Source: Candidatus Fermentibacterales bacterium
GTDB lineage: Bacteria > Fermentibacterota > Fermentibacteria > Fermentibacterales > JAFGKQ01
Length of the DNA stretch: 16,795 bases
Reading direction: 5' to 3'
NCBI GenBank assembly: GCA_016928495.1
Contig: JAFGKQ010000280.1
Location: forward strand, 1-16,795
Shown here: piece after piece, positions 69 to 14,401 of the stretch
How positions within the stretch are numbered: position 1 is the first letter of the stretch
Layout: each line of letters opens with the position of its first letter
Position numbers and translations under genes: made by a program
Notes under the pieces: model-generated
The model's database searches: none
Told to the model about the DNA's origin: nothing
Seen by the model: only the letters and a program-made list of their open reading frames with translations

Positions 69-2627
69 CTGAAGCGCAGCCGCATTCCTATGCTGGGAAC
101 CTGCTCCTTCGTGGCAGGGGTCGGGCTGCTGCTGTCCCAGATAGTCTGGAACCGTCAGATGCTCATCCTCGTCGGAGGAAGCGTCGACGCGGCTGCCTCC
201 GTTCTCTCGGCGTTCATGCTGGGCCTGGCGGCGGGCAGCATGCTTCTGGGGCGGCTGGCGCAGCGGTCCAGGCGGCCCGCGTCGCTCCTGAGGGCGGTCC
301 TGCTCCTTGCCTCCGGCTTCTCTCTGCTGCCGTACGTGCTATCGGTCCCCGCCCTGGGAGCCTACTCGGCCCTTCGGGGCTCCTTCCTGCCGCATTCCCT
401 TCTCAGGCTGGCCGTGAGCCTCCTGATCGTGTTCCCGGCCACCTTCTGCGCGGGCGGCATCATCCCCATCATGGCCAGGCTCATCCAGCGCGGCCCGCGC
501 CCCGCGGCCCGAGAGAGCGGCAGGCTCTACGGGCTCCACACCCTCGGATCCGCTCTGGGGGGTCTGGCGGCGGGTTTCGTGCTGCTCGAGCTGATGGGCG
601 CGCTGTTGACACTGCTCTCGGGCATGGCGCTGCTGCTCGCGTCCGCGGTCATCGCACCCTCCGGCGCCGCCGGGGAGAGCGGGGGTGGTGGGGTGGAAGA
701 GCGCCGGGGCACGTCCCGCGGCTCCGGTCCGGGTGCGTTCTTCCTTGCTGTCTACGGTTTCAGCGGCATGCTCGCCCTCGGGTACGAGCTGGTCTGGACC
801 AGGCAGCTCACCTTCGTCCTGGGCAACAGCACCTACGCCTTCGCGCTGATGGGCTCGGTGGTTCTCGCCGGCCTGGGGTCCGGCGCCCTGCTGGGCCAGG
901 CGATGATCGCGAGGACATCGAGGCCCGTGTCGAGCCTCGGATTGGTCGAGATCGTGCTGGGCATCTCCAGCCTGCTTCCGCTCGTCAGCCTCGGGTGGTT
1001 CCAGCCCTTTGCGGACCAGATCTACTCCGGTGCAAGCTGGGAGCTCTCGATGACAGCGCGGCTCGTCGCAGTCCTGCTCTTCATGCTTCCTTCGACTGCC
1101 TGCATGGGTGCGACCTTCCCTCTGATGGTCGGCGCCTCTGCCCGGAGGGACAGGATGGGAGAGGACGTCGGCGCCCTGTCGATGGCGAACTCCCTGGGAG
1201 CGGCAGTGGGGCCGGTGCTCGCCTCGATGGTCCTGTTCAGGGTCTTCGGGGTCACGTCGACGACAGGAGTCCTGGCCTCGGGCAGCCTCCTGATCGGCGG
1301 CGCGCTGCTCCTTCGCGACGGACGAAAGCTCGCGGCTGCCCTGGCCGTGGCTCCAGGGATCCCCGTCGTCTGGCTGCTGGTCGGAGCTGGGACCCCTCCC
1401 GGCACTATCTCCCCGTTTCCCGATGGTGAGTTGCTCTTCTTCGAGGAGGACAGGACTGCCACGATATCGGTCTTCGGAAGGGAGTGGGACGGCTACCGCA
1501 GCCTCAGGATCAATGGCGTGGAAGAGGTCCCCATCGATCAGGCCTCCCTCGAAGCGTTCTACCTGCTCGGCAACCTGCCATTCTCCTACGCTCCGGGAGC
1601 GGACAGAGTGCTGGTGGTCGCACTCGGCGGCGGCATTACGGCCGGGGCCGTGCTGGACCATCCCGTGGACACGCTCGTCTGCGTCGAGCTGTGCCCCGCG
1701 CTGGTCGAGGCCTCCGCTCTGTTCGAGCGCGAGAACGGACGTCCCGAGAGGGACCCTCGCTTCCGTCTCGTCGGGGATGATGGCAGGAACTACATGGCTG
1801 CCGGCGGCTCGGGTGACTGGGACATCGTGGTGTGTGACGCGACCCATCCCGGGTCCGCCGATAGCTGGGTCCTCTATACGGAGGAGTTCTACGAGGATGT
1901 CCGGGAACGGCTGTGCCCGGGCGGGATCGCCGCGCAGTGGGTGCCTCTCCATCAGCTGCCGTGCAGGGAGCTCGAGCGGATACTGGCCACCTGGGCCCGC
2001 TGCTTCGATCACTGCGCCGTCCATCTTGCGGGAGGCCGGCATGCCATACTGATCGGCTCGAGAGACCCTCTCGTGATGGATATCCACGCCATGCTCCCGG
2101 GGGATGCTCTCGACAGACTCGAGAGCGTGGCGCTCACGCCGGGCGACCGGGACTACATGGCCCCGGTCATCGGAGCGGAGGACATGGTGCGTATCAGGGA
2201 CCTCCCCGTTCGCTCGAACACCGATGATCTCGCCCCATGCCAGTTCCTCAGGCGGAGGGTGCCTCGGGATCCGCAGGCCACGATCTCGCCCAACGCCGCG
2301 CTTCTGATCTCGCTTGGCGGCTCGTCCTCCCAGGTCGGCCAGGCATCCAGGGTAAGGGAGGGCCAGATCCTGTACTGGATGGCCGAGCTTCCCGCCGCGG
2401 CAGAGGTCCTGTCGACGGCGACCGGACGCATTGCCTCCAGATGGCAGTCGGTCTGTCTCACCAGCGCGGCCGAGACGGCGCTGCTCGCCGGCAGGACGCA
2501 GGACGCGCTCCTCCTGTGTTCCGGGGCTGTCGAGGCCGACAGCAGCTTCCAGCGGGCGCGGGACCTCCAGATCCGGATCCGGAATGCCTGCGAGGGTAGC
2601 GAGCGGGCCTCCTCCCCTCCATACTAG
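69..2627 (+). CDS. Membrane-fused spermidine synthase-like protein
   Basis: A large inner-membrane protein with a cytosolic SpeE-like Rossmann domain. Residues are counted from ATG 90. Residues 1-190 and 215-430 hold about 12-13 hydrophobic helices in two related halves (15-81 resembles 231-297, with VWNRQ matching VWTRQ). The halves are joined by a polar Gly/Glu/Arg linker. The methyltransferase-like core follows: nucleotide-binding ALGGG (511-515), VELCP, GDDGRNY, then DIVVCDATHP (578-587). In true spermidine synthases the last motif reads D-x-x-D; here the second Asp is His586, so classical aminopropyl transfer is doubtful. The last 100 residues are helical and TPR-like. Start: ATG 90 has no ribosome site, whereas GGGGA at 56-60 sits 8 bases before an in-frame CTG at 69. 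That start would add a basic KRSR segment before helix 1. I chose CTG 69; ATG 90 is the conservative alternative. Known relatives are common in GC-rich bacteria, with unclear substrates. Confidence 0.8.
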   Translation: MKRSRIPMLGTCSFVAGVGLLLSQIVWNRQMLILVGGSVDAAASVLSAFMLGLAAGSMLLGRLAQRSRRPASLLRAVLLLASGFSLLPYVLSVPALGAYSALRGSFLPHSLLRLAVSLLIVFPATFCAGGIIPIMARLIQRGPRPAARESGRLYGLHTLGSALGGLAAGFVLLELMGALLTLLSGMALLLASAVIAPSGAAGESGGGGVEERRGTSRGSGPGAFFLAVYGFSGMLALGYELVWTRQLTFVLGNSTYAFALMGSVVLAGLGSGALLGQAMIARTSRPVSSLGLVEIVLGISSLLPLVSLGWFQPFADQIYSGASWELSMTARLVAVLLFMLPSTACMGATFPLMVGASARRDRMGEDVGALSMANSLGAAVGPVLASMVLFRVFGVTSTTGVLASGSLLIGGALLLRDGRKLAAALAVAPGIPVVWLLVGAGTPPGTISPFPDGELLFFEEDRTATISVFGREWDGYRSLRINGVEEVPIDQASLEAFYLLGNLPFSYAPGADRVLVVALGGGITAGAVLDHPVDTLVCVELCPALVEASALFERENGRPERDPRFRLVGDDGRNYMAAGGSGDWDIVVCDATHPGSADSWVLYTEEFYEDVRERLCPGGIAAQWVPLHQLPCRELERILATWARCFDHCAVHLAGGRHAILIGSRDPLVMDIHAMLPGDALDRLESVALTPGDRDYMAPVIGAEDMVRIRDLPVRSNTDDLAPCQFLRRRVPRDPQATISPNAALLISLGGSSSQVGQASRVREGQILYWMAELPAAAEVLSTATGRIASRWQSVCLTSAAETALLAGRTQDALLLCSGAVEADSSFQRARDLQIRIRNACEGSERASSPPY

Positions 2628-4641: not shown

Positions 4642-5784
4642 TCAGCCGGATCCCAGCCTCTCGTGCACCCTGGCGAGGAGCTCCGGGACCCTCAGGCCCT
4701 GTGGGCACCTGCTCTCGCAGTGGCCGCAGGAAGTGCAGGCGTCGGCGCGTGCCTCCCTGCGGATCCAGCCGTATGCGCGCCTCATCCCGTCTAGATCGTC
4801 GTAGAGGTAGGCGCTGTTGAACAGATCGAAGAGGTACGGGATGAGAATCTGCTCTGGACAGGGCAGGCAGTAGCCGCACCCCGTGCAGTCTATGGCCGAC
4901 AGCTTCCTGTACTCGCTCCTCACCTCAGCGACAAGCCCGCGCTCCGGGTCGGAGAGCGTGCCCGGCCCGCTCCTGCAGGCGAACTCGACGTTCTGGCGGA
5001 CCTGCTCCATGCTGGCCATGCCGCTCAGCAGCAGGGATACCTCGGGCTGGTCCCAGACCCACTGCAGCGCCCACTCGACCGCCGACATCCTCCTCGCAGA
5101 GGCCTCCCACAGTCTTCGGACCCCCTCGGGGGGCCGCCGTGAGAGCTGGCCTCCGCGCAGAGGCTCCATCGCGATCACCGCGATGCCCCTGGATGCGGCA
5201 TACCTGACGCCGTCGGCGCCGGCCTGTCTGTCCACGTCCATGTAGTTGTACTGGAGCATGCAGCAGGACCAGCCGTCCCAGGCATCGATGATGTGCCTGA
5301 AGTCCTCCGGACCATCGTGGAAAGAGAAGCCGAGCCTCGAGATCTCTCCGTCCGCCATTCTCCGCGCCGCCCAGTCGAGCACCCCGAGGCCCGAGAGCTT
5401 CTCCCAGCTCTGGTGATCCAGACCATGGAGCAGATAGATATCGAAGCTGTCCCTCCTCAGACGGGCCAGTTGTTCCTCGAAGAACCTGTCCATGTCGTCT
5501 CGAGACTCGATCTTCCAGGACGGGAGCTTGGTGGAGAGCAAGACATGCCCGGGTCGGCGCCGCTCGAGGTACCTGCCCAGGAACCTCTCGCTCTCTCCTG
5601 CATGGTAGGGATAGGCGGTATCCAGGAGGTTGACGCCGTGATCAATAGCATAGTCGAGCATCGCGGAGGACAGGTCCTCGTCGATGCTGGAAGGGCTGCC
5701 GGGCTTCAGGAGCGGAAGACGCATGGCTCCGAAGCCGAGAGCGGACGGGTGCCACTCCTCGCTGCCGAATGATCTGTAACGCAT
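4642..5784 (-). CDS. Aldo/keto reductase with C-terminal 2x[4Fe-4S] ferredoxin domain
   Basis: A 380-residue oxidoreductase. The TIM-barrel has the expected catalytic tetrad: Asp55 (LLDTAYPY), Tyr60 (Tyr58 less likely), Lys86 (STKLP) and His120 (LLHGLD). The NAD(P)H-binding end carries SLLLSGMASMEQVRQN. After about residue 295 comes a ferredoxin-like tail with two Cys clusters: Cys300, 303, 306 and 309 (CTGCGYCLPCP) and Cys350, 353, 356 and 360 (CTSCGHCESRCP). This architecture is a known AKR subgroup in anaerobes and facultative bacteria, usually labelled 4Fe-4S-binding aldo/keto reductase. The substrate is unknown. The Fe-S tail suggests electron exchange with a ferredoxin-type partner. The start is ATG 5784, with AGG overlapping the stop of the DUF1232 gene just upstream (8-base gap), so the two genes form an operon. 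Confidence 0.93.
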   Translation of the reverse strand: MRYRSFGSEEWHPSALGFGAMRLPLLKPGSPSSIDEDLSSAMLDYAIDHGVNLLDTAYPYHAGESERFLGRYLERRRPGHVLLSTKLPSWKIESRDDMDRFFEEQLARLRRDSFDIYLLHGLDHQSWEKLSGLGVLDWAARRMADGEISRLGFSFHDGPEDFRHIIDAWDGWSCCMLQYNYMDVDRQAGADGVRYAASRGIAVIAMEPLRGGQLSRRPPEGVRRLWEASARRMSAVEWALQWVWDQPEVSLLLSGMASMEQVRQNVEFACRSGPGTLSDPERGLVAEVRSEYRKLSAIDCTGCGYCLPCPEQILIPYLFDLFNSAYLYDDLDGMRRAYGWIRREARADACTSCGHCESRCPQGLRVPELLARVHERLGSG

Positions 5785-6489: not shown

Positions 6490-7416
6490 ATGTCTGGAAC
6501 CGCATTCGTCTTTCCCGGTCAGGGGTCGCAATCCGTGGGCATGGACCGTCATCTCCGAGGCTTTCCTGCCGCGGCGGAGCTGCTGGACAGAACCGACGAG
6601 CTCACCGGAGTGGAGGGGCTGGCCGAGATGATATCCGCCGGCCCCATCGAGGACCTGACCCGCACTGACAGGGTGCAGCCGGCAATCACGATCGTCAGCC
6701 TGGCTGCGCTTGCCGTGCTCGGCTCGCACGGCATTCGGCCCACCGTGGTGGCGGGACACAGCCTGGGGGAGTATTCGGCTCTCGTGGCAGCCGGCGCGCT
6801 GAGGAGGGAGGACGCTCTCCTGCTGGTGCGCCATCGGGGCAGGCTGATGCAGGAGTGCGCCGACAGGCATCCCGGGGGAATGGCGGCCCTGATAGGAGCG
6901 GACAGAGAGGCGGCGGAGAGAGTCGTCTCGGAGGCATCGGAGGCTGGGGCCATCGGCATCGCCAACATCAACTCGAACGGGCAGGTAGTCATATCCGGAT
7001 GCTCGGAGGCCATCGATCTTGCGGGCAAGCTGGCGGCCGAGGCAGGGATCAGGCGCTTCATACCGCTCAGAGTCTCGGGAGCGTGGCACTCCCCCCTCAT
7101 GTCCGAGGCTGCCGCGGGTCTTCGCAGCTATCTCGATCGGGTCGAATTCCGTGATCCGTCCCTGGAAGTCGTCGCGAACGTCACCGCCTCGAGGATCGCC
7201 AGCGGCGCCGAGAGCAGGGACCTGCTGGAGAGACAGGTCACCTCCCCGGTGCTCTGGTCCGACAGCATCCGCTCGATGGTCGAGAGCGGAATCGACCACT
7301 TCGTGGAGGTTGGCCCCGGGAAGGTTCTCCAGGGCCTCTTCCGTGATTACCCGGGAGTCCGGGTCTCGGGAACGGAGTCCCTCGAGGCCATCACTGGCCT
7401 GGTCAGGGAGTCCTGA
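6490..7416 (+). CDS. fabD: Malonyl-CoA:ACP transacylase FabD
   Basis: A full-length 308-residue FabD. It moves the malonyl group from CoA to acyl carrier protein to supply type II fatty-acid synthesis in the cytosol. Signatures: FVFPGQGSQ at the N-terminus, the nucleophile Ser91 in GHSLGEY, Arg116 for malonyl carboxylate binding (RHRGRLMQ), NSNGQVVISG (161-170), catalytic His200 in GAWHSPLM, and EVGPGKVLQGL near the C-terminus. The ribosome site GGGAG (6476-6480) is 9 bases before ATG 6490. Unlike the usual fabH-fabD-fabG-acpP cluster, it stands alone between two minus-strand operons. No fab partner is in the window. Confidence 0.97.
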   Translation: MSGTAFVFPGQGSQSVGMDRHLRGFPAAAELLDRTDELTGVEGLAEMISAGPIEDLTRTDRVQPAITIVSLAALAVLGSHGIRPTVVAGHSLGEYSALVAAGALRREDALLLVRHRGRLMQECADRHPGGMAALIGADREAAERVVSEASEAGAIGIANINSNGQVVISGCSEAIDLAGKLAAEAGIRRFIPLRVSGAWHSPLMSEAAAGLRSYLDRVEFRDPSLEVVANVTASRIASGAESRDLLERQVTSPVLWSDSIRSMVESGIDHFVEVGPGKVLQGLFRDYPGVRVSGTESLEAITGLVRES

Positions 7417-7656: not shown

Positions 7657-9009
7657 TCAGCCCGGGCGGCGGCCGTGCGAAGCGGCCAGGCGCGCGACCA
7701 GGCGATCGTGTGATGGGAACGCCAGCTCGGGCACCGAGTCGATCCGCGTCCAGATGACCTCTGACGCGTCGTCTCCCGGTGCTGCCTCTCCATTCCAGGT
7801 GCTGCTTCTCATGGCTACGAGGACTATGTCCCCGTAGGCGGTCCTGTCGCTCTCCACAGTCTCCAGTGCGAGCTCTCCGGCTTCGAGCCCGGTCTCCTCC
7901 AGAAGCTCCCTTCTCGCGCACTGCTCGATCGTCTCGCCCCGCTCGAGGAAGCCCCCCGGGAGCGAGAGCATGCCCCTGCCGGGCTGGATGGCCCGCCTGA
8001 CGAGCAGCACGGAGTCTCTGCTCGCGTCCAACAGGAGAAGGGCAACGGCAGGGAGGGGGTTCCGGTAGTGGACCAGCCCGCAGGATCGGCAGACGAGGTG
8101 TGCCGGCTGGTCGGCGAGGGTGCCCATGACGGCACCGCAGCGCGAGCAGTAGCGGGGGCTCTCGTAGAATGCCTCTCCATCCGGCAGGGGCGGCCCGGGA
8201 AGCAGGGGCGGCATATGGCCGGGCAGGAGGCCGTCGCCCGAGCGGAAGCTCGAGTCGATGGCCGTCTGGAGACGGCGGCGGCCTGCCGCCACCGCCTCTT
8301 CGAGGGAGGCTCCCGCCGCGATATAGGAGGCTATGGCCGAGGCAAGAGCGCATCCCGTTCCGTGCACATGCCCCCCGGCCGGGGGCCTCCTTCCCTCGAA
8401 CCAGAGCCTGGAGCCGCTTCGCGTCACCAGGAGATCTCTGGGAAGCCCTGCCAGATGGCCGCCCTTTACCATCACAGCCGCCGCCCCGCGCGCCAGGATC
8501 TCTTCCCCGGCAAGCTCCATGTCGCGGGGCGTGGACACGCTCCCGAGGCCGGCGAGCCACGCGGCCTCCTCGAGGTTTGGGGTGACCAGGAGCGCTCTCG
8601 GGAGAAGGAGCTCGATGACGAGTGCCTCGGGGTCCGCTGCCTCGCGGAGGGATTTGCCGGAGCTCGCCCTCGAGACGGGATCCAGGACATATGGCGTAGC
8701 GGAGAGCGGGGCGGAGGTCAGGGCACGGGCCAGCTCCCTCACGTGAGCGCCCGTGGGGAGCATCCCGCTCTTCACGGCGTCGATGCCGCCATCACGTATC
8801 ACGGCAGCGATCTGCGACGAGAAAAGCTCTGGAGGCACCGCTTCCCAGGCGTCCACCCGGGTCGAGGACTGGGCGGTGACTGCGCTGACCACCGGCGCCG
8901 GGTGAACGCCGCAGGCCGCGATCATCAGTATGTCCGCCGAGAGGCCGGCCCCGCCGCTCGGGTCGGTGCCTCCGACACACATCACGACCGGATATGGGTG
9001 TCTGGACAT
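7657..9009 (-). CDS. thiD: ThiD (HMP/HMP-P kinase) fused to zinc-ribbon Nudix hydrolase
   Basis: A 450-residue fusion. Residues 1-265 are a ribokinase-fold ThiD, which phosphorylates hydroxymethylpyrimidine (HMP) to HMP-P and HMP-PP for thiamine synthesis. It shows GGTDPSGGAGLSAD (13-26), TAQSS (46-50, pyrimidine contact), KSGMLP (80-85), DPV (110-112), TPNLEEA (143-149), VKGGH (181-185) and the HGTGC loop (216-220). After a Pro/Gly linker, four cysteines form a zinc ribbon (Cys288, 291, 307, 310). They lead into a complete Nudix box, G353-x5-E359-x7-R367-E368 with EETGL at 371-375, so both halves look active. The frame is open back to 9144, but ATG 9009 has GGAG 5 bases upstream and starts just before the first kinase strand. 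ThiD usually fuses to ThiE or ThiN; the Nudix partner is unusual. The zinc-finger gene follows by 18 bases. Confidence 0.92.
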   Translation of the reverse strand: MSRHPYPVVMCVGGTDPSGGAGLSADILMIAACGVHPAPVVSAVTAQSSTRVDAWEAVPPELFSSQIAAVIRDGGIDAVKSGMLPTGAHVRELARALTSAPLSATPYVLDPVSRASSGKSLREAADPEALVIELLLPRALLVTPNLEEAAWLAGLGSVSTPRDMELAGEEILARGAAAVMVKGGHLAGLPRDLLVTRSGSRLWFEGRRPPAGGHVHGTGCALASAIASYIAAGASLEEAVAAGRRRLQTAIDSSFRSGDGLLPGHMPPLLPGPPLPDGEAFYESPRYCSRCGAVMGTLADQPAHLVCRSCGLVHYRNPLPAVALLLLDASRDSVLLVRRAIQPGRGMLSLPGGFLERGETIEQCARRELLEETGLEAGELALETVESDRTAYGDIVLVAMRSSTWNGEAAPGDDASEVIWTRIDSVPELAFPSHDRLVARLAASHGRRPG

Positions 9010-9070: not shown

Positions 9071-10891
9071 ATGCTAAGGCCCATGAAGGGCCTCGGGAAG
9101 CTTCTCCTCGACAGCGCGAAGCTCTGCCTGCCGGCGGTCGCCATGATCGCAGCGGGCAGTGCGGATGCCGACTACATCGAACCAACTATAGACTCGATAT
9201 ACGTCACGGACAATCTTCCGGTATCCAGAGGCGACCTTCTGAGAGGAACGGGGCTGAGGGAGGGCATCCCCCAGTTCCAGGTCACCAGACGGGGAGTCCT
9301 CGACGCCGTTCTCGACAACCTGACCTCCAGGGGCTATCTCGAAGCCGACGTGAACGTGATCTGGCCATCGTGGACCGATGAGCTAGGCGTGGCGGAGATC
9401 CATGTGGCGCCTGGAAGGCGAAGCCACTACAGCGGTTTCGTGGTATCGGGCAACACGGTCTTCGAGGCCGCGGAGATCGCCCGGATGCTCGGGCTGAGCC
9501 CCGGAGACCTGCTGACCCCGGCGGCGCTGGCCGACATGGAGAGCCAGCTCCTGGACGCCTACAGGCAGAGGGGCTATGTCGGCGCGATCATAAGGGTCGT
9601 AGTTGCTCCTCCCGACACCGCGGGTCTGCCGGACACACTGTCGGAGATCGACAGGGCCGTGGAGTGCGAGGTTACCGAAGGCCAGCAGGTCCACCTGGGC
9701 GCCATCCGCGTCGAGGGACTCGACACGGTCCGTAAGAAGGTGGTGATCCGCGAGATACCTCTGGCCCGGGGCGATTCGCTGGACATGCGGATCCTCAGGG
9801 AGTCCATCTCTGACGTCTACGGACTCGGCCTCTTCCAGACGGTGAGGATCCGCTACGAGGGACTGGAGGAGGGCAGCGACACCGTTGATGTCGTCGTTTC
9901 CGTGACGGAGAGGGACTACCGGACGGTCGATCTCGGAGGCGGGTACCTCTCCCCCTCCGCGATCACGGGCAGCGCCTACTGGAACCACCCGAACCTGTTC
10001 GGCAACAACCAGCGCCTCAACATCGGGGGCAGGATCACACGATACCTGAGCTCCGGAGGAGGAGACGAGGTGGTTCCTCAGGTGTCCTACGAAGAGCCCT
10101 ACTTCATCTCGACCAGGTGGACCGCCAGGGTCACTGCCGACTACCTCTACAAGGAGCTGCCCGGCATCAGCGAGAGATCCTACGGAATAGAGACGACCTT
10201 CAGCAGGCGCTTCGGCAGGTCGCTCGAGTGGGAGGTGGGCTACAGAGTGGAGCGCTCCCGCTACGCCGAAGAGGCGGAGGAGTCGGACTGGGCGACCAGC
10301 GCCATCGTTTCCACCTCTCTCGTGCATGACACCAGGAACTCACCGTTCTCCCCCTCCCGGGGACACAGGCTCAGCGGAGGGGTGGATGCCGCCGGGCTTC
10401 TCGTGGGCGGACGGCAGTACTATCGCCTCACAGCCGAGGTGCGGGTGTTCAAGGCCGTGAAGAGGGACTTCATCCTTGCCTGGAGGCTGGGAGCGGGCAG
10501 AGTGGAGCCCTACGGTGGCGATGAGATCGTCGAGCCCGATGACAGGTTCTTCCTGGGCGGGGGCACTACTGTCAGGGGCTATGGATTCAATGACCTGGGA
10601 CCGGAGGACGAGCAGGGCAACTCGCTGGGCGGAAGGGTGATGCTCCTGGGGAACATCGAGACGAGGCTCAGGGTGATCGGCTCACTCGGGTTCGTCCTGT
10701 TCGCCGACACGGGTGGGCTCTGGGACTCTCTCTCGGATGTCTCGCTCGACAACATGGGGTTCGGTACCGGCCTCGGCCTGAGGTACGAGACGCCATTCGG
10801 GCCTCTGAGGATCGACTACGGGTTCGCCCCGACATGGCGCGAGGGTTTCCGCAGGGGAAGGGTGTACGTGGCCCTTGGGCACGCCTTCTGA
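9071..10891 (+). CDS. tamA: TamA-like outer-membrane POTRA/beta-barrel protein
   Basis: A 606-residue Omp85-family protein. A signal peptide (core LCLPAVAMIAAG, likely cut near residue 33) precedes three POTRA domains. These lie at about 36-110, 115-195 (VVSGNTVFEAAEIARML) and 205-282 (VEGLDTVRKKVVIREIP). From about residue 283 (YRTVDLGGGYLSPSA) comes a 16-strand-type barrel with the NPNLFG-like strand (HPNLFGNNQRL) and the lid-loop motif VRGY (501-504). It ends in the aromatic C-terminal residue Phe (ALGHAF). Three POTRAs and a tamB gene immediately downstream favour TamA over BamA, which usually has five. It works in outer-membrane biogenesis or lipid transport with TamB. The frame is open to 8930, but the signal peptide points to ATG 9071 (GGAG 11 bases upstream) or ATG 9083. 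Confidence 0.87.
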   Translation: MLRPMKGLGKLLLDSAKLCLPAVAMIAAGSADADYIEPTIDSIYVTDNLPVSRGDLLRGTGLREGIPQFQVTRRGVLDAVLDNLTSRGYLEADVNVIWPSWTDELGVAEIHVAPGRRSHYSGFVVSGNTVFEAAEIARMLGLSPGDLLTPAALADMESQLLDAYRQRGYVGAIIRVVVAPPDTAGLPDTLSEIDRAVECEVTEGQQVHLGAIRVEGLDTVRKKVVIREIPLARGDSLDMRILRESISDVYGLGLFQTVRIRYEGLEEGSDTVDVVVSVTERDYRTVDLGGGYLSPSAITGSAYWNHPNLFGNNQRLNIGGRITRYLSSGGGDEVVPQVSYEEPYFISTRWTARVTADYLYKELPGISERSYGIETTFSRRFGRSLEWEVGYRVERSRYAEEAEESDWATSAIVSTSLVHDTRNSPFSPSRGHRLSGGVDAAGLLVGGRQYYRLTAEVRVFKAVKRDFILAWRLGAGRVEPYGGDEIVEPDDRFFLGGGTTVRGYGFNDLGPEDEQGNSLGGRVMLLGNIETRLRVIGSLGFVLFADTGGLWDSLSDVSLDNMGFGTGLGLRYETPFGPLRIDYGFAPTWREGFRRGRVYVALGHAF

Positions 10892-10894
10892 CGA

Positions 10895-13800
10895 ATGCTA
10901 GTCTCAACGCGCTCCGAGATCTTCGGCAGGTGGCTCGCCGCCGCTTCCCTCGGGCTGTTCCTGCTGCTTCTGACCTTCTACGCGCTGTGGGCCCTCGGTT
11001 TCCTGGATCAGGCAGTCGGCATGATCATCTCTTCCGTGGCAAGCTCGGACAGCATTACCATCAGGGTGGTCTGCCCCAGGAGCGATCTCTTCTGGAGCAC
11101 CTCCGTAGATACAGTTGTGGTGCTGACGCACGACGGTGTGCGAGTGGTGGTCAGCGATGTGGACATTGACGGCTCCGCAGTCTCCTACCTCGCCGGCAGG
11201 GGTCTCAGGCGGCTCCGGGCCGGAGAGGTCGTGGTCGAGGTGCCGCTTCGTGACAGCACAGGCCCCTCCGGAACGCTGCCCGAGGTGCTCGCCTCGGTAG
11301 AGGACGGGATCGTCACCACTGTCGATTCCCTGCTGGTGGAGGCCGGCCGTGTTCGTGTCCATGGAGTGGATGTTGCCGATTCGATCTTCCTGGCCACCGG
11401 GCTGATCGTAGATAACGGGGCCGTTCTGCGGATCGACAGCCTCAGCGCCGTGGTGCCGCGCGCCGGGCGGGTCACCGCCAACGGACACCTGAGGCTTGCC
11501 AACTGCGTCCTCTCTTCCGAAGGGTTCTCCGCTGCCTCCACAGCGGGGGGCGTGGAACTGCACGGCGAGATGGACGGCATCGGACGCCTTCTGCAAGCGG
11601 AAGGCTCCGGTTGGCTGAGCCTGGTCCCCCTGCTGCCCTTCGCCTCGGGCGTGGTGAGGTTCGAGACGACGACCCACGGCAGTCTGGACCGACCCGAGCT
11701 CGTGATGAGCCTGCTCACGGAGAACCTCCGGCTCTTCGGGAGAGAGGTCCGGGCCGACCTCGACTCCCTTCACCTGGGTCTCGACAGCGTGAGGGTCTTC
11801 GAAGGGCACTTCGAGTCGGGGTCCGTGGCCGGGAGCTTCAGCGGCCGCCTCTCCTTCGGCGACGGGTGGTTCGCCAGGGCCGACCTCGCTCTTGCCGGGT
11901 TCGACCCGGCGAGCGAGCTCGGAGCCGACCTCCCGGGAATGAGGCTGACCGGCAGAGCCAGCGTCTCCGCGAGCGGATCCTTGCTGGGCCCGGGGTCGCT
12001 GTGGTTCGATTGCGACCTTGCCAGCGTGACCATGGTGGATGACGAGCTGGGACGGGTGAGGGCCAGCGGGGAGGTTTCCGCAGGGGCCTGGAGCCTCGAT
12101 GCCTCTGCCACCGGGACCTACGGAAGGGTCTCCTATCGCGGCTCGGGGGAGATGGGCGCGGACTGGCTGCCCGCCGCTCACTCGGGGAGGCTCGAGCTTG
12201 CCCTCTCGTCGCTTCCCGCCGCCCTGGGGAGGCTGCGCGGCGTCGGGGAGCTCCCGCAGGCGTCCGGGATCTCAGGCGGCCTGGATGTCTCCGGATCGCG
12301 AAGAGCGCTGCGGCTCTCCGGGTCACTGGCCATGTCGGACATGGGCTACGGCGGTCTCGCTGCCTCGGATGTCGCCCTCGAGGGGGCGATGAGTGTCGGG
12401 CCCGGAGTGACCTCCGGCAGGGCGTCGCTCGAGATCGGCAGCCTGTCGTCGCCCATCGGCGAGCTGCAGCTCCGTACCACGATGACTGCGGCGTGGCCTT
12501 CCATCGAGGTGGAGAGCCTCGAGTTGTCGACTGCCGGAGGCATCTGCGCCAGTGCGAGCGGGAGAGTGGAGCTCGCGGGGGAGAGCGGCTCGGTCAGGAT
12601 GAATGGGCTCGCGCTGAGCATGAGCAAGCTCAGGCTCGTTTCCGACGGTCTGGTGAGCCTGGTGGCCGGTCCGGAGTCCATCGTCCTCGACAGCCTCTGG
12701 CTTCAGACTCCTCATGGGCAGATACTGGCATCGCTGCGCTCAGGCCCCGGTGACACCCTGGCCCTCGCGCTGAGGCTCTCCGATCTCGACCTGGCATCGG
12801 CCTCCAGCGCGTCCGGGCTTCTCCACGGGATCTCCGGCATAGGCTCGATCGAGCTGACGGCAGTCAGGCAGGGCCCCGAGCTCCTGGCCAGTCTGGACGG
12901 GCTGATCCGGTCCCCGTCCTATGGACCGTTCTCTTCGGACAGCATCACCTTGAGCGCTTTTCTCACCAACGACTCCCTGGCGATAGAGGGGGTCTACTCC
13001 TGGCGCGAGGGCAGGAGGAGCGGGTTGCGCGCCTCGCTCGACTCCCCCTGGAGCGGGGAGAGCCCGGGCTTACGCAGGGGGAGCCTGAGGTTCATCGAGC
13101 TCGAGGTCGAGGAGCCGCTGGACTGGGTGCTGAGCCTCCTGCCAACGGGCCTGAGAACCAGGGGCGGCTACCTGTCCGCGCACCTGGAGTACGAGAGGAT
13201 AGGGCCTGATGCCGATCCGGTCGTGGATGCCGAGATCTCCGCAAGGGCGGACGAGCTCTACCTCACCTCGATGGGCATAGTCGTGCCGAACGTGTTGATC
13301 ACCGTGCAGCACTCCGACCCGGCGGAAGCCACCTTCACCACGCAGTTCAGCCTGACCGCCCTGGACGTGCTCGGGGGAAGCCTCGGCGTGAGCGGGAGCC
13401 TCGAGTTCACGGACTACCTACCTGATCCGCGGATCGGAAGCTACAGCTTCACCGGAAGGGCTTCCAGCATCAACATCGGGATCCCGAACCTCGCGAGCCT
13501 CGTGGTCGAGGGGAAGTTCTCCTGCTCGGGGCACTCCTCCTCCAAGCGTCCCCTCGTCTCGGGCGCAATTCAGGTCTCGGAGGGACTGGTGACGATCCCC
13601 GACATGGGATCCGAAGGAGCCTCGACGCCGGATCTTCCCGTGGAGCTGGATGTTTCCATCGGCGCGTCGAGGGGCCTCTGGTTCAGGTCCTCGTTCGCCG
13701 ACATCGAGCTGAACGCCGACCTGAGAGTGGTCACGAACCAGCATCGGCCGGCAGTCCTGGGCACGATCAATGCCGTTCGAGGCAGGATGTTCCTGTTGCA

Positions 13801-14401
13801 GAAGGAGTTCCAGATCATCGAGGGCTCTATCCAGTTCTTCGGGCTAGTGCCGATCAGGCCCTACGTCACGGCCATTGCGGAGACGAGGATCATCGGAGCC
13901 ATGGACAGGGAGACCTACGTCATCATGGCGCTGGTGCAGGGCTATCTGGACAACCTGGAGATGACCCTGTCCGGCACCGGGCCCGCGGGCGACCTGCTGC
14001 AGGAGGACATCATAACTCTGCTGGCGCTGGGCATCACCTACGACCAGCTCCAGCAGTTGGACACCGGCGCCCTGGAGTCCGAGCTGGAGAGCATAGCCCA
14101 GAGCTATGTCGGCCAGCTCCTGGCCAGGAGCATCCGGGAGGGCATCGGCCTGGACCAGCTCGTCCTGGATCCTGAGCTCATGGGAGAGCAGGAGGACAGG
14201 AGCCTCACGGTCAACATAGGCAAGTACGTTCTGCCCGACCTGTTCCTCTCCTACGAGGGCGACGTGCTCTCTTCCGAGCCCGGCACGATACGGGCCCAGT
14301 ACTTCCTGACAAGGGACTTCTCGGTGATAGGCAGCACGAGGTCGAGCCTCCACGGCGAGATGGAGCCCTCCCTGGAGCTCCACTACACCTTCCGGTACTG
14401 A
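10895..14401 (+). CDS. tamB: TamB-like translocation/assembly module protein (DUF490)
   Basis: A 1168-residue AsmA-like bridge protein, close to the length of E. coli TamB (1259). A single N-terminal membrane anchor lies at about 12-36. It is followed by some 750 residues of repeated, hydrophobic-polar alternating beta strands typical of the lipid-transfer groove. The C-terminal DUF490 domain includes GTINAVRGRMFLLQKEFQIIEGSIQFFG (about 956-983), ALGITYDQL and a final barrel-like NIGKYVLPDLFLSYEGD...LHYTFRY. Family knowledge: TamB spans the periplasm, contacts the TamA POTRAs and moves phospholipid to the outer membrane. ATG 10895 comes 3 bases after the tamA stop with no clear ribosome site, which indicates translational coupling. 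Its stop overlaps the glycosylase start. Confidence 0.88.
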   Translation: MLVSTRSEIFGRWLAAASLGLFLLLLTFYALWALGFLDQAVGMIISSVASSDSITIRVVCPRSDLFWSTSVDTVVVLTHDGVRVVVSDVDIDGSAVSYLAGRGLRRLRAGEVVVEVPLRDSTGPSGTLPEVLASVEDGIVTTVDSLLVEAGRVRVHGVDVADSIFLATGLIVDNGAVLRIDSLSAVVPRAGRVTANGHLRLANCVLSSEGFSAASTAGGVELHGEMDGIGRLLQAEGSGWLSLVPLLPFASGVVRFETTTHGSLDRPELVMSLLTENLRLFGREVRADLDSLHLGLDSVRVFEGHFESGSVAGSFSGRLSFGDGWFARADLALAGFDPASELGADLPGMRLTGRASVSASGSLLGPGSLWFDCDLASVTMVDDELGRVRASGEVSAGAWSLDASATGTYGRVSYRGSGEMGADWLPAAHSGRLELALSSLPAALGRLRGVGELPQASGISGGLDVSGSRRALRLSGSLAMSDMGYGGLAASDVALEGAMSVGPGVTSGRASLEIGSLSSPIGELQLRTTMTAAWPSIEVESLELSTAGGICASASGRVELAGESGSVRMNGLALSMSKLRLVSDGLVSLVAGPESIVLDSLWLQTPHGQILASLRSGPGDTLALALRLSDLDLASASSASGLLHGISGIGSIELTAVRQGPELLASLDGLIRSPSYGPFSSDSITLSAFLTNDSLAIEGVYSWREGRRSGLRASLDSPWSGESPGLRRGSLRFIELEVEEPLDWVLSLLPTGLRTRGGYLSAHLEYERIGPDADPVVDAEISARADELYLTSMGIVVPNVLITVQHSDPAEATFTTQFSLTALDVLGGSLGVSGSLEFTDYLPDPRIGSYSFTGRASSINIGIPNLASLVVEGKFSCSGHSSSKRPLVSGAIQVSEGLVTIPDMGSEGASTPDLPVELDVSIGASRGLWFRSSFADIELNADLRVVTNQHRPAVLGTINAVRGRMFLLQKEFQIIEGSIQFFGLVPIRPYVTAIAETRIIGAMDRETYVIMALVQGYLDNLEMTLSGTGPAGDLLQEDIITLLALGITYDQLQQLDTGALESELESIAQSYVGQLLARSIREGIGLDQLVLDPELMGEQEDRSLTVNIGKYVLPDLFLSYEGDVLSSEPGTIRAQYFLTRDFSVIGSTRSSLHGEMEPSLELHYTFRY

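Follow-up and report, generated by a model that had tools for sequence, protein, structure and literature searches.

What does a Nudix hydrolase do on the same polypeptide as ThiD, the HMP/HMP-P kinase of thiamin synthesis? The question is raised by a gene in the window, which is the whole 16,795-nucleotide stretch of DNA that was analysed and comes from a Candidatus Fermentibacterales bacterium. According to the original prediction, both domains lie in a single reading frame. Translation confirms this with exact coordinates and places the frame on the minus strand: positions 7657-9009 hold 450 codons that begin with an ATG start (MSRHPYPV...) and contain no internal stops. The plus strand of the same interval is interrupted by stops. 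A hidden stop between residues 260 and 285 was looked for, and none is there. ThiD and Nudix are the only domains that Pfam finds in this protein. The gene and its parts are as follows.

7657..9009, minus strand: thiD-nudix fusion gene, 450 aa (translation and Pfam)
8221..8988, minus strand: ThiD (HMP/HMP-P kinase) domain, residues 8-263 (PF08543, TIGR00097, PDB match)
8350..8364, minus strand: HGTGC motif of ThiD, in which Cys220 is the presumed catalytic residue (alignment of 31 order members)
8155..8220, minus strand: inter-domain linker, residues 264-285 (low pLDDT)
8074..8154, minus strand: zinc-ribbon-like element with C288, C291, C307 and C310 (sequence and Cys conservation)
7690..8052, minus strand: Nudix hydrolase domain, residues 320-440 (PF00293 NUDIX, 77 bits)
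7885..7953, minus strand: Nudix box G353-x5-E359-x7-R367-E368-L-x-E371-E372-T-G-L (sequence and conservation)

The ThiD half matches PF08543 (Phos_pyr_kin) over residues 16-263 with 210 bits against a cut-off of 27, and its PDB match is 7r8y (E 2e-42). With the equivalog model TIGR00097 (cut-off 204.95 bits), the window copy scores 189 bits and four other members of the order reach 207-239 bits. The best 50 Foldseek matches of the full fusion model are ThiD and pyridoxal kinases only and are uninformative on the Nudix half. The ThiD half is a predicted HMP-P kinase and may also act as a pyridoxal kinase. Conservation was read from an alignment of 31 fusions from the order, two of which (L013 and L034) probably represent one genome. 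In the HGTGC motif, C220 is kept in 31/31 and T218 in 30/31 sequences. Nearly all positions of the GTGC anion hole and of the GGTDPSGGAG, DPV, TPN and KGGH motifs are conserved in 29-31 of the 31.

A short linker, predicted to be flexible (residues 258-285 have a pLDDT below 50 in the AlphaFold2 model), connects ThiD to the zinc ribbon. The ribbon follows the pattern C288-x2-C291 / C307-x2-C310, and all four cysteines are present in every one of the 31 fusions. The Nudix box of the window copy fits GX5EX7REUXEEXGU exactly, and G353, E359, R367, E368, E371 and E372 are each found in 31/31. The completeness of both active-site sets that had been claimed from the single copy is thus borne out across the fusions. 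PF14803 (Zn_ribbon_Nudix, cut-off 25.6 bits) gives no match for the window copy at E 0.001 and scores 20-31 bits on related Nudix proteins.

The fusion is not an oddity of one assembly. By our own count it is full-length in 34 of the 42 genomes of the order and lies in pieces, at contig ends or with a frame break, in 7 further ones; the only genome of the order without it is 67% complete. The fused frame was also found in four Candidatus Fermentibacteria / Candidatus Aegiribacteria contigs. A sequencing error or chimaera is ruled out by the same fused frame in the 34 genomes. The recurrence is lineage-wide within the order: among the matches listed from about 360 genomes of other lineages, where true fusions would rank first, no full-length ThiD-Nudix protein occurs. 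One candidate from a second phylum (G047) was rejected, as the alignment had run past ThiD into the linker and the protein is a plain ThiD of 305 aa.

Purifying selection acts on both halves of the fusion to a similar degree. The ThiD half and the Nudix half each have a mean pairwise identity of 0.56, and for the closest pairs dN/dS is about 0.05-0.29 in the Nudix half and similar in the ThiD half. The Nudix half has a dN/dS of 0.10 in the pair L016/L018 (G006/G010) and 0.08 in the pair L025/L027 (G029/G019); both genomes of the latter pair lack Thi4 and ThiG, and G006, the tested genome of the former, lacks both as well.

Cells of the order appear to make their own HMP-P and to require a ThiD, since ThiC is found in 39/42 and ThiE in 35/42 of their genomes (G000 among them) and TPP riboswitches stand at ThiC and at a ThiM-ThiE operon (ThiM was assigned by eye via its HHITN motif). 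The fusion gene is the sole PF08543 kinase in 25/25 genomes tested at E 1e-8, including one (G030) where a contig end or break cuts it short. A separate thiD, for which the original prediction suggested a check, was found in none of the 25.

We tentatively read the fusion as a thiamin-pathway enzyme with two activities, in which the Nudix half may perform quality control on pathway diphosphates. Put more broadly, relatives of the Nudix half in B1 gene clusters elsewhere suggest that it probably has a part in B1 synthesis, either clearing up after a step or finishing one. The ThiD half, as the cell's only ThiD, would convert HMP and HMP-P to HMP-PP for ThiE. The zinc-ribbon Nudix half would be an active diphosphatase whose diphosphate substrate belongs to that pathway too, and it would turn wrong, damaged or surplus diphosphates from the attached kinase or its product into monophosphates. 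Candidate targets are faulty thiamin diphosphate and analogues or oxidised forms of HMP-PP. As ThiD makes HMP-PP and ThiE uses it, HMP-PP is the compound that the two share. Quality control is favoured because HMP-PP and its derivatives are common to ThiD, ThiE and the genomes that lack Thi4, and because NudJ and Tnr3/NUD20 offer precedents. The lineage-wide distribution of the fusion, its standing as the sole ThiD, its intact active sites and the like selection on its halves argue for this role, as do the related Nudix genes in thiamin clusters of other phyla, taken up below. Against it, the Nudix family is broad, is mostly unlinked to thi genes and has other fusion partners, NudJ is a distant relative, and the fusion gene stands apart from other thi genes and, in the window, from any TPP riboswitch. 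The thiamin-linked Nudix genes elsewhere, moreover, share a neighbourhood with the fusion in one case and could equally mean ADT in the other.

The precedents are of several kinds. NudJ hydrolyses HMP-PP and toxic analogues (PMC5158307, PMC12359138), and oxo- and oxythiamin diphosphate are substrates of YJ9J_YEAST and NUD20_ARATH (PMC5158307). Table 4 of PMC4921024 includes Tnr3/Nudix among the thiamin fusions; as in the fusion described here, a Nudix domain is joined to a kinase whose product is a diphosphate of the thiamin pathway, and it removes faulty diphosphates (PMC4921024, PMC5158307). The partner in Tnr3, however, is thiamin pyrophosphokinase and the protein is eukaryotic, whereas Pfam finds no such domain in the fusion. 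Tnr3 and the plant and yeast thiamin Nudix enzymes were reportedly treated by Goyer et al. in 2013; we know of no zinc ribbon described in them. NudJ (YmfB) from Escherichia coli is, like the proposed Nudix half, a bacterial and HMP-PP-directed Nudix enzyme, but a stand-alone one. NudJ, which the original prediction took as its model, is only a distant relative. A profile of this Nudix group matches NudJ/YmfB with E 4e-11 over the Nudix core only, with the ribbon region excluded; NADH pyrophosphatases are matched at about 1e-18, and the zinc-ribbon Nudix protein 3cng from Nitrosomonas europaea at 4e-29 over both ribbon and core. 3cng, which has no assigned function (PMC5389931), and the NudC-type enzymes are thus the best sequence matches, and they lack a kinase fusion.

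Other known fusions pair ThiD with a different thiamin domain. In ThiD-ThiE/ThiN proteins (PRK09517, PRK08573) and yeast THI20, the partner is a synthase or TenA-like, and the NCBIfam models PRK09517 and PRK08573 cover only the ThiD half of the present fusion and stay below their cut-offs. PRK08999 has an N-terminal Nudix and a C-terminal ThiE/TenI-like domain, in contrast to the order of kinase, zinc ribbon and Nudix found here. Thiamin Nudix enzymes, ThiD fusions and a fusion of Nudix with a TMP synthase-like domain (PRK08999) are therefore kinds already known. The architecture of ThiD plus zinc-ribbon Nudix appears to be unreported: no ThiD-Nudix fusion was found in the open-access literature searched, which left aside supplementary fusion tables (PMC4921024). 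As the fusion is lineage-wide and holds the only ThiD, the thiamin role of a Nudix enzyme becomes testable with one protein.

A possible, if doubtful, alternative gives the Nudix half a general housekeeping role, the hydrolysis of nucleotides that are oxidised or linked to ADP (of the ADP-ribose, FAD, NADH or 8-oxo-dGTP type). On this account, likewise doubtful, it was fused to ThiD through neighbourhood history and has no thiamin-specific substrate. The history can be followed in part from the genes that flank the fusion, which are conserved neighbours:

6490..7416, plus strand: FabD-like acyltransferase (PF00698)
9077..10891, plus strand: divergent Omp85/BamA-like protein (PF01103)
10895..14401, plus strand: TamB-like protein (PF04357)

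The fusion gene sits between FabD and Omp85/TamB, and no other thi genes stand beside it in the order. No TPP riboswitch was found in the window, and scans for promoters and terminators found nothing. Further away in the window lie genes for an aldo/keto reductase that ends in a 4Fe-4S dicluster domain (4642-5784, minus strand) and for a protein of 845 aa (90-2627, plus strand), whose membrane half is MFS-like and whose C-terminal half, judged by eye, resembles spermidine synthase.

Another phylum (G044 and relatives; loci L119 and L145-L150) has 7 genomes in which genes for ThiD, PAP2 and a zinc-ribbon Nudix protein overlap or abut; PAP2 was assigned by Pfam in L119 and by eye elsewhere. G061 has the thiD, PAP2 and Nudix cluster between TamB/Omp85 and FabD, and these proteins match the neighbours of the fusion. 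The shared TamB/Omp85/FabD neighbourhood indicates that the fusion probably arose there from an old thiD-PAP2-Nudix arrangement by loss of the intervening PAP2 gene. The operon and the fusion are for the same reason probably not independent, and adjacency alone may explain the fusion, as a general hydrolase would have it.

The breadth of the family points the same way. Its nearest relatives outside the order (G189 and G420, 45-47% identity) have ruvX as a neighbouring gene, and their genomes contain just a weak, partial PF08543 match. Taken as a whole, the zinc-ribbon Nudix family is not specific to thiamin, because relatives occur in genomes without a PF08543 kinase (G198, G233, G349), and members are found in other fusions. 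The best named PDB matches of the Nudix half are NADH pyrophosphatases and 8-oxo-dGTPases. The identity of an NADH pyrophosphatase (NudC, NAD(H) diphosphatase) was rejected: NF001299 scores 62.8 bits against a cut-off of 158, and the SQPWPFPxS motif of NudC is absent, the fusions carrying D-x-T-x-Y-G in its place. Against a generic enzyme, at least two separate lineages link the Nudix to ThiD or ThiE, one of them under a TPP riboswitch, compared to 0/40 among other loci of related Nudix genes from many families, which were scored for ThiC, ThiD, ThiE and Thi4 within about 4 kb and some of which end at contig edges.

The second linked lineage is the f71 phylum (20 genomes), in which the Nudix gene directly follows thiE. 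Most loci have thi4 just upstream of thiE-Nudix, in an operon headed by a TPP riboswitch (L155, L156, L157, L234-L261), and in two genomes (G122 and G247) ThiE and Nudix form one protein, both above the TIGR00693 thiE cut-off. In the Nudix tree, the ThiD-fused and thiE-linked proteins form separate, well supported clades. The tree thus splits the linked groups and leaves the deep order of their origins unresolved; the separation suggests that the zinc-ribbon Nudix was probably recruited to thiamin more than once. The thiamine link of the original prediction accordingly holds in part: the riboswitch-headed thi4-thiE-Nudix operons, the ThiE-Nudix fusions and the thiD-PAP2-Nudix genes uphold it, and the relatives in kinase-less genomes do not.

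These f71 operons suggest ADT as the substrate there and bring in an account that we consider unlikely for the fusion, namely that its Nudix half is the ADT hydrolase still missing from the Thi4 route and cleaves ADT to AMP and thiazole phosphate carboxylate. The wider version, to which we give similarly little credence, has the zinc-ribbon Nudix group include the ADT hydrolase, so that a two-headed fusion could supply ThiE with thiazole phosphate as well as HMP-PP. Thi4 makes ADT, and the literature places an uncharacterised or yet-to-be-identified Nudix enzyme at the ADT step (PMC5853225, PMC4215014). NADH pyrophosphatase and other enzymes close in sequence use ADP-X substrates, which would suit ADT. 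The gene content agrees in part. ThiG is missing in 24/25 members of the order, in 7/7 genomes with the thiD-PAP2-Nudix operon and in 3/3 f71 genomes tested, against its presence in 22/39 controls, a contrast that amounts to about three lineages. The sole ThiG-bearing member of the 25 (L230, G017) has ThiG beside a second, divergent ThiE.

Thi4 itself co-occurs with the fusion inconsistently, in 8/25 members, which is not the pattern expected for an ADT hydrolase. Both Thi4 and ThiG are absent in 16/25 members, including 4/4 tested members of family f3, and yet the Nudix half is intact and under purifying selection. G122 likewise keeps its ThiE-Nudix protein without thi4, and the separate clades of the ThiD-fused and thiE-linked proteins also weigh against one common ADT function. 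ADT as sole substrate is thereby weakened, and because Thi4-less genomes keep the Nudix half it is unlikely to be the only substrate in the order. The f71 operons and ThiE-Nudix fusions are candidates for the Nudix enzyme of the Thi4 route.

A non-catalytic sensor or scaffold that tunes ThiD is very improbable: Nudix-fold regulators exist and AraR is among the PDB matches, but the Nudix box has the same catalytic residues in all 31 fusions, and binding by itself would not call for such invariance.

Related Nudix domains also occur in further arrangements. One is fused to CbiX (L179:3995-4951, minus strand, G260), with a similar frame of 321 aa in G374, and another is fused to HD (L191:4041-5036, minus strand, G161). 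At two loci, a NadA gene is followed by a zinc-ribbon Nudix gene (L151:2663-4144, NadA by Pfam; L154:3344-4815, which looks alike), and both genomes contain Thi4 and lack ThiG.
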